Assembly: GCA_011389745.1 (NCBI GenBank)
Contig: JAABTQ010000013.1
Location: forward strand, 1-64,000
Reading direction: 5' to 3'
DNA: 64,000 bases
Source: Desulfobacteraceae bacterium
GTDB lineage: Bacteria; Desulfobacterota; Desulfobacteria; Desulfobacterales; SKZT01
The notes under the pieces were generated by a model, which ran no database searches, was not told the DNA's origin, and saw only the letters and a list, made by a program, of their open reading frames with translations. Made by a program: the position numbers and the translations under genes. Positions 46,964 to 49,108 of the stretch are shown here, piece by piece; within the stretch, counting starts at the first letter, position 1; each line of letters starts with the position of its first letter.

Positions 46964-47164
46964 ATGGCAAACGGCGTCGTGAAATGGTTTAGTGAAAAAA
47001 AAGGTTACGGTTTTATTGAACAAGAGGACGGTCCTGATGTCTTTGTTCATTATTCCGGAATTGAGGGAAACGGTTTTAAATGCCTATACGAGGGAAACCG
47101 TGTTACCTTTGATATAGAAGAAGGTAAAAAAGGGCCTACGGCTGTTAATGTTATTGTAGAATAA
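46964..47164 (+). CDS. cold-shock domain protein
   Basis: A single cold-shock domain of 66 residues that binds single-stranded RNA and DNA. RNP1 is KKGYGFIEQ (residues 12-20) and RNP2 is DVFVHY (26-31). It starts with [15 protein letters not shown], the usual pattern. AAAAGGAGGG lies before the ATG, giving a very strong ribosome binding site. It is slightly unusual in HYSGIEG where most have HFSAI. It is monocistronic. Confidence 0.95.
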
Positions 47165-47362: not shown

Positions 47363-47536
47363 TCCAAAACCTCTTAGTATATATACTGTTGTGCAATTTT
47401 TTCAATACCTATCAATGAATAGTGCTGAAAAGCTTCACCTTATGTACGGCCCTCGCGGAAATAACATAATGTGAAGATGTCGGAGTTCTTAAGAGGTCAT
47501 TTGGTAAAATGAAAACTGATATTATAAGGATTTGAA

Positions 47537-49108
47537 ATGATTACCTTGTTGGATTATGGCGCTGGTAATGTCCGGAGCGTGATCAATGCCATTGAAAGCC
47601 TTGGTGAAAAAGTTAAAATTGTTGAAAGTATCGAAGATATTTTATCAGCGGAAAAATTAGTATTTCCTGGAGTCGGCAACTTTATCAGCATGATTCGCAT
47701 TTTGCAGAACAAGAATTATTGCGAGCCCATAAAGGAATTTCTGAATTCCGGTCGTCCCTTCCTGGGAATTTGCCTGGGCTTGCAGGCGCTTTTCGAGGAA
47801 AGTGAAGAGGCCCCCGGAGCAAGGGGATTGGGGATATTTCGCGGCAAGGTCATGCGTTTTGATATCGATCTTTCAGTTCCCCATATCGGATGGAACGGAA
47901 TAAATATCAAAAAGCCTTCACGGATATTTTCAGGCCTTTCAGGAATGGAAAAGCTGTATTTCGTGCATTCATATCATGTTGTACCTGAAGACAGACAAGT
48001 GGTGTTGACCACTACCAATTATGGGATCGAATTTGTCAGCAGCGTTCAGCAGGGCAATATTATTGCCACGCAGTTTCATCCGGAAAAAAGCGGGAAAACA
48101 GGCATTCAACTCCTAAAAAATTTTATTCAAACCGATCTTCCGGAAACGCTTCCGCCGGAAATTTCTTTAAAAACACATATTGCCAAAAGGATAATTGCCT
48201 GTCTGGATGTACGCGCAAACGATCAAGGGGATCTGGTGGTAACCAAAGGAGATCGCTACGATGTTCGGGAAAACGGAAATGTGCGAAACCTGGGAAAACC
48301 TGTAGAGATGGCCGGCAAATACTATCAGGAAGGTGCGGATGAGATTGTCTTTTTAAATATCACGGGTTTCAGAGATTTTCCTCTTGAAGATATCCCTATG
48401 CTTGAGGTTTTGAAACAGACATCCTTAAATGTATTTGTCCCGCTGACTATTGGCGGTGGTATCCGCGATTACATGGATAAAAATGGTAAACACTATTCAT
48501 CATTGGATGTGGTCTCGGAATACTTTCGTTCCGGAGCCGACAAGATATCAATTGGAAGTGATGCTGTTTTGATCGTGGAGGATTATCTGAAAACCCAAAA
48601 AGCAACCGGCCTAAGTTCGATCGAGCGGATTTCACAGGTATATGGCAATCAGGCGGTGGTTATTTCCATCGATCCGAAACGGGTGTATGTTAAATCTCCC
48701 AATGGAATAAGGCACAATGTGATAGAAACCCAATTTCCCGGACCTGAAGGAGAAGTTTATTGCTGGTATCAATGTACAATCAAGGGAGGGCGGGAAGGCA
48801 GACAAGTTGATGCGGTGACCATGGCGCAGGTTTGTGAAAAACTTGGGGCAGGGGAGATTCTGCTGAATTGTATTGATCGGGATGGTACCAACATGGGTTT
48901 TGATCTTGAATTGATCAATGCCGTGAAATCTGCTGTATCAATACCTGTCATCGCCTCAAGCGGCGCCGGTTGCGAGGCTCACTTTTATGAGGTTTTTTCC
49001 CGGACAGATGCTGAATCTGCATTGGCAGCGGGTATTTTTCACCGGGAAGAACTTTCAGTAAAAGCGGTTAAGGACTACCTGAAAGGCAAGGTGGAAATTC
49101 GGGTTTAA
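47537..49108 (+). CDS. bifunctional imidazole glycerol phosphate synthase (HisH-HisF fusion, HIS7 type)
   Basis: A 523-residue fusion of glutaminase and cyclase that makes imidazole glycerol phosphate and AICAR in histidine synthesis. HisH part (1-205): YGAGNVRSV, catalytic Cys79 in GICLGLQAL, and His181 with Glu183 in QFHPEKSG. HisF part (about 212-523): Asp224 in IACLDVR, Asp379 in ISIDPKRVYV, GEILLNCIDRDG and PVIASSGAG. The cyclase carries the extra loops of eukaryotic HIS7: MDKNGKHYSSLDVVSEYFRS and GEVYCWYQCTIKGGRE. Bacteria usually have separate hisH and hisF. AAGGA precedes the ATG. No other his gene is near. Confidence 0.92.
   Translation: MITLLDYGAGNVRSVINAIESLGEKVKIVESIEDILSAEKLVFPGVGNFISMIRILQNKNYCEPIKEFLNSGRPFLGICLGLQALFEESEEAPGARGLGIFRGKVMRFDIDLSVPHIGWNGINIKKPSRIFSGLSGMEKLYFVHSYHVVPEDRQVVLTTTNYGIEFVSSVQQGNIIATQFHPEKSGKTGIQLLKNFIQTDLPETLPPEISLKTHIAKRIIACLDVRANDQGDLVVTKGDRYDVRENGNVRNLGKPVEMAGKYYQEGADEIVFLNITGFRDFPLEDIPMLEVLKQTSLNVFVPLTIGGGIRDYMDKNGKHYSSLDVVSEYFRSGADKISIGSDAVLIVEDYLKTQKATGLSSIERISQVYGNQAVVISIDPKRVYVKSPNGIRHNVIETQFPGPEGEVYCWYQCTIKGGREGRQVDAVTMAQVCEKLGAGEILLNCIDRDGTNMGFDLELINAVKSAVSIPVIASSGAGCEAHFYEVFSRTDAESALAAGIFHREELSVKAVKDYLKGKVEIRV

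Follow-up and report, generated by a model that had tools for sequence, protein, structure and literature searches.

Ordinary imidazole-glycerol-phosphate (IGP) synthase, as in T. maritima and E. coli, is encoded by separate hisH and hisF genes, and all histidine-making eukaryotes reportedly rely on the fused gene, HIS7. Bacterial fusions have also been published: three bifunctional HisHF sequences were reported in two delta-proteobacteria, their shared insertions were noted, they joined plants in the tree, and a plant-to-bacteria transfer was proposed (Fani et al., 2007; PMC1963479). In 2024, HisHF was described in two Archaeoglobales, about 70% identical to the HisHF of sulfate reducers (PMC11237513). 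A 2021 paper (PMC8305728) left two origins for HIS7: the genes became fused in the ancestor of eukaryotes, or the fused gene was acquired from "a (still unknown) prokaryote". With a broad set of bacterial HIS7-type genes and an unfused intermediate able to root the tree, the choice between these origins becomes testable. Here we analyzed such a gene in a 64,000-nucleotide stretch of DNA from a Desulfobacteraceae bacterium (contig JAABTQ010000013.1, assembly GCA_011389745.1; hereafter, the window). A sequence-only reading of the window had identified a HIS7-type HisHF in a bacterium, rightly so; the novelty that it implied was overstated, since HisHF with these insertions had been described from bacteria in 2007 and HisHF from archaea in 2024 (PMC1963479; PMC11237513). 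What is new here is the breadth of the fused gene in the window's phylum (65 of 395 sampled genomes), its rare occurrence in two other phyla, and an unfused intermediate in a class of the same phylum, class f31.

The gene is a single frame of 523 codons, ATG to stop, with no internal stops. Its cyclase insertions were mapped by alignment with ten ordinary split HisF proteins, from which it differs at five sites. The features are as follows.

47526..47530, + strand: Shine-Dalgarno-like AAGGA, 6 bases 5' of the hisHF ATG (motif match only).
47537..49108, + strand: hisHF, predicted bifunctional IGP synthase, 523 aa (frame read, NCBIfam, PDB match, AlphaFold2 model).
47537..48130, + strand: HisH glutaminase domain, residues 1-198, with Cys79, His181 and Glu183 (TIGR01855 and PF00117).
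48131..48178, + strand: linker, residues 199-214, the gap separating the HisH and HisF domain matches.
48179..49105, + strand: HisF cyclase domain, residues 215-523, with Asp224 and Asp379 and gate residues Arg218, Glu269, Lys336 and Glu440 (TIGR00735 and PF00977).
48212..48274, + strand: insertion region I1, residues 226-246, in the beta1-alpha1 loop (by alignment; also in yeast and unfused f31 HisF).
48377..48385, + strand: insertion I2, residues 281-283 (limited to fused proteins and yeast).
48479..48511, + strand: insertion I3, residues 315-325, KNGKHYSSLDV (limited to fused proteins and yeast).
48572..48607, + strand: insertion I4, residues 346-357 (fused proteins, yeast and f31 HisF).
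48698..48751, + strand: insertion I5, residues 388-405, 5' of the CWYQCTIKGGRE strand (fused proteins, yeast and f31 HisF; a shorter version in Halobacteriota HisF).

As the sequence-only reading had claimed, one frame holds a complete glutaminase followed by a complete cyclase, and both exceed their curated NCBIfam cut-offs (TIGR01855 on residues 1-198, 220 bits vs. 105; TIGR00735 on residues 215-518, 307 bits vs. 294.6). The active-site residues it named were also correct: C79, H181, E183, D224 and D379 correspond to C83, H193, E195, D245 and D404 of yeast HIS7, and are invariant when the window protein is aligned with yeast HIS7 and two distantly related bacterial proteins. Also conserved are R218, E269, K336 and E440 of the ammonia gate, plus K237, and the counterparts of yeast R239, K258, E293, K360 and E465 are invariant among the same four proteins; all ten catalytic and gate residues are retained in the window protein. 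A PDB search matched yeast HIS7 (1jvn) to residues 3-516 at 572.7 bits, while no single-domain HisF or HisH scored above 168, the best being a lone HisF at 167.7 bits. An AlphaFold2 model (pLDDT 89.7, pTM 0.90) returned yeast HIS7 entries as its top PDB structures, at a TM of 0.90.

The window protein thus shares with yeast HIS7 (PDB 1jvn, 1ox4-1ox6) its domain order, 54% identity by alignment, the catalytic and gate residues, all five insertions and the predicted fold; it differs in that its HisH part is without several short yeast-specific stretches, its linker is shorter and its host is a bacterium. With ordinary IGP synthase it has the domains and chemistry in common, but there the genes are separate and without HIS7-type insertions, and identity between the window protein and the solved single-domain proteins is about 33-39%. 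Since the match to yeast HIS7 runs end to end, the ten residues are kept, the model superimposes at a TM of 0.90, and no second HisH or full HisF was found in the genome, we infer with high confidence that the protein functions as a bifunctional, HIS7-type IGP synthase. In such an enzyme, the N-terminal domain would free ammonia from glutamine, the ammonia would travel through the barrel to the cyclase, and the C-terminal domain would consume it in converting PRFAR to IGP and AICAR.

In a profile search of the genome, which is 99.92% complete, no further HisH scored above the family cut-off and no other full HisF turned up, so the suggested check for separate hisH and hisF genes found none. 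Because of this, hisHF very probably supplies the whole IGP synthase step in this genome. The gene had been said to have no his neighbours, which holds for the adjacent genes: these encode a cold-shock protein, a TauE/SafE permease, a 396-aa protein and an SIS/CBS sugar-phosphate isomerase. The cold-shock domain protein (66 aa; 46964-47164, + strand) lies upstream of hisHF, and the window itself starts at an rRNA operon, its positions 1-386 being the end of the 23S rRNA plus the 5S rRNA. Base composition gave no signal of a recent foreign arrival (gene GC 44.3% vs. 43.2% for the window). That two genes were joined by a sequencing or assembly error has a negligible chance, considering that 79 distinct fused relatives lie on other contigs and that the HisHF of a sister species is 81% identical to the window protein.

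The loops likened to HIS7 in the sequence-only reading were confirmed as five cyclase insertions, and yeast HIS7 fills all five sites; the third of the motifs it cited, GEILLNCIDRDG, is a strand common to all HisF and no insertion. Its statement that bacterial HisF lacks these loops holds for ordinary HisF; it fails for the fused proteins of the phylum and for three unfused HisF proteins that carry part of the set, since I1, I4 and I5 are present in the unfused f31 HisF. Therefore, insertions so far taken as marks of bifunctional proteins can exist without fusion.

Fused genes in the window's phylum were spread over 27 of 108 families, the 65 genomes comprising 62 with the gene whole, two with it cut short and one with it as two pieces in one frame. 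Outside the phylum, the fused gene occurred in 2/247 genomes of the phylum around Methanothrix and in 2/198 of the phylum around a Thermodesulfovibrionales genome. Named close relatives of the window protein came from Desulfobacteraceae and Desulfobulbaceae. In the two Halobacteriota-like genomes, which are probably those of the published Archaeoglobales HisHF (PMC11237513), the fused gene is 68-70% identical to the window protein and sits inside the bacterial fused group, which suggests transfer from bacteria. A search of plasmids gave, among the best matches listed, ordinary split genes only, while two scans of viral contigs for eukaryotic relatives gave none that was usable, and PDB gave yeast HIS7 only. 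In two close relatives (G001 and G002), a short HisF-like protein (L088, L089) occurs beside the fused HisHF and scores 281-283 bits against TIGR00735 (cut-off 294.55); it was not found in the window's genome. One relative has a linker ~50 residues longer than the others (L128:4254-5999, a 582-aa frame), and another lies in an 869-aa open frame (L141:3150-5756, - strand) with ~345 in-frame codons 5' of HisH, a candidate extension only.

Matches from Clostridia and Chloroflexi that looked full-length proved to span two genes, lacking the insertions and often separated by one stop codon; in eight clostridial loci (L016, L017, L018, L020-L024), hisH and hisF share a reading frame interrupted by a single stop, one mutation short of fusion. 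Neighbouring genes of this kind illustrate how easily fusion might occur, and the bacterial and eukaryotic fusions could conceivably be independent events. We consider this very doubtful: both have the five insertions at matching sites, the window protein and yeast HIS7 are 54% identical from end to end, the fused genes and yeast form one clade at 100/100 support, and the clostridial pairs are without the insertions.

The unfused form bears more directly on how the gene was assembled. In class f31 (n = 3 genomes), a stand-alone HisF of ~297 residues was found in 3/3 genomes; it is 52-54% identical to the window cyclase by BLAST, and I2 and I3 are absent from it. A separate HisH was present on another contig in two of the three genomes, and none was found in the third, which is 80% complete (HisF loci L123, L124, L125; HisH loci L126, L202; hisF is not adjacent to hisH). 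HisF trees placed f31 as sister to the fused genes plus yeast with support of 100/99, and with all insertion columns removed, the fused-plus-yeast group and the same group joined by f31 were each recovered at 100/100. In the HisH tree, the f31 protein clustered with its ordinary counterparts from Geobacter and Nitrospira, and the clade of fused HisH sequences, at 100/99, did not include it. This place among stand-alone HisH speaks against f31 being a fused gene that came apart, since a product of fission should have a fused-type HisH unless that one had been lost and another recruited. Fission would require that a fused gene lost its HisH part along with I2 and I3, two exact losses, and that an ordinary HisH was then gained; in addition, all three genomes of the class agree, and f31 stays outside the fused genes at 100/100 without the insertion columns. 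Forcing f31 inside the fused genes cost 42-47 log-likelihood units (AU p from 0.017 to 0.08), and as three of the four nested placements tried gave p of 0.056, 0.060 and 0.08, the AU tests brought no firm rejection of fission, which we regard as improbable. HisF from Halobacteriota, which branches next below f31, has part of I1 and a short loop that resembles I5 and ends in CWFECSxYGGR, suggesting an earlier grade of assembly. As judged from these sequences, then, the f31 form points to stepwise assembly of HisHF in prokaryotes.

Trees of fused and split forms, proposed as a check by the sequence-only reading, gathered the fused group with yeast HIS7 and not with ordinary HisF. Yeast was the single eukaryotic sequence included, and it is on this one eukaryote that the 100/100 clade of fused genes plus yeast, apart from split HisH and HisF, is based. 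When ordinary HisF served as the root, the best trees put yeast among bacterial fused genes, with support of 98/83, 98/94 and 99/99, depending on the data set, for the branch that leaves some bacterial lineages outside. However, the first-branching bacterial lineage varied among data sets, the tree rooted on f31 left yeast at an unresolved fork, and AU tests of one bacterial fused clade with yeast outside gave p of 0.362, 0.319, 0.263 and 0.357, with no rejection. For these reasons, the nesting of yeast is a lead and no result. The long branch of yeast would more likely pull it outward, yet the best trees place it inside.

Two directions of transfer had been offered for the window gene, as the bacterial source of the eukaryotic one or as an arrival from a eukaryote-like lineage. 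The first is favoured, in a general form only: the window gene itself is one of many and sits well within the bacterial fused group. Since the fused gene is widespread in the phylum, and since a HisF that is unfused yet bears three of the five insertions branches just outside all fused genes and yeast, a prokaryotic origin is favoured. We think it probable, short of proof, that the HIS7 family was assembled stepwise in prokaryotes and then passed to eukaryotes. HisF would first have gained I1, I4 and I5 while unfused, as in class f31; I2 and I3 would then have been gained and HisH fused to HisF; the fused gene would have dispersed through Desulfobacterota-like and Nitrospirota-like bacteria and some archaea of the Archaeoglobales type, and would also have reached eukaryotes to become HIS7.

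The reading of Fani et al. (2007) concerned the same kind of fused gene, with HIS7-type insertions and in the same broad bacterial group, delta-proteobacteria; there, three sequences were read as a gift from plants, whereas the wider sample of fused genomes and the unfused intermediate presented here favour a prokaryotic origin. Under that earlier proposal, HIS7 was fused in eukaryotes, entered the window's phylum by one transfer (e.g., from a plant or alga) and then spread. It draws on the tree of that paper (PMC1963479), where the three bacterial sequences grouped with plants, and a single bacterial clade with yeast outside survives our AU tests. However, the 2007 tree held only those three bacterial sequences; fused genes in the phylum are diverse and occur across 27 of its 108 sampled families; an unfused HisF accompanied by an ordinary HisH, in the same phylum, is sister to all fused genes plus yeast; and yeast is nested within bacteria in our best trees with ordinary HisF as the root. 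We rate transfer from a eukaryote as possible but rather unlikely: both the unfused intermediate and the wide bacterial distribution of the family weaken it.

A second enzyme of the pathway may be relevant to the direction of transfer. The HisA gene of the window's genome (G000, L002; contig C9:2-361), putatively of the eukaryotic type, is cut by the contig end, and its remaining 119 residues score 139.6 bits against TIGR02129 (hisA_euk; cut-off 229.3) over 109/255 positions; bacterial HisA models gave at most 40 bits. Its best PDB matches were 9fcf and 2agk, which we take to be plant HISN3 and yeast HIS6. Within the phylum, 33 TIGR02129 relatives pass the curated cut-off. TIGR02129 was found in 34/395 genomes, 24 of which also carry fused HisHF (Fisher p = 1e-13 by genome; 10/15 families, p = 3e-4; both uncorrected for shared ancestry). 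To judge by this co-occurrence, two consecutive steps of the pathway may have a common history, and a second eukaryotic-type enzyme in company with HisHF also lends some weight to transfer from eukaryotes. The HisA tree gave no direction, as its outgroup branch was very long (AU p = 0.167). Returning to a prokaryotic origin, it seems to us an even bet that the HIS7 of eukaryotes, and perhaps their type of HisA (HIS6/HISN3) with it, came from a Desulfobacterota-like lineage and that grades of its assembly survive in living prokaryotes, running from Halobacteriota HisF (I5-like loop and part of I1) through f31 (three insertions) to the fused protein (five).

As a further observation on the window's genome, the only candidate for IGPD (hisB) is a 642-aa frame directly before hisC (L213:112-2037, + strand, contig C14); it starts with a HAD phosphatase domain at the N-terminus and matches IGPD in two places, both weak and divergent.
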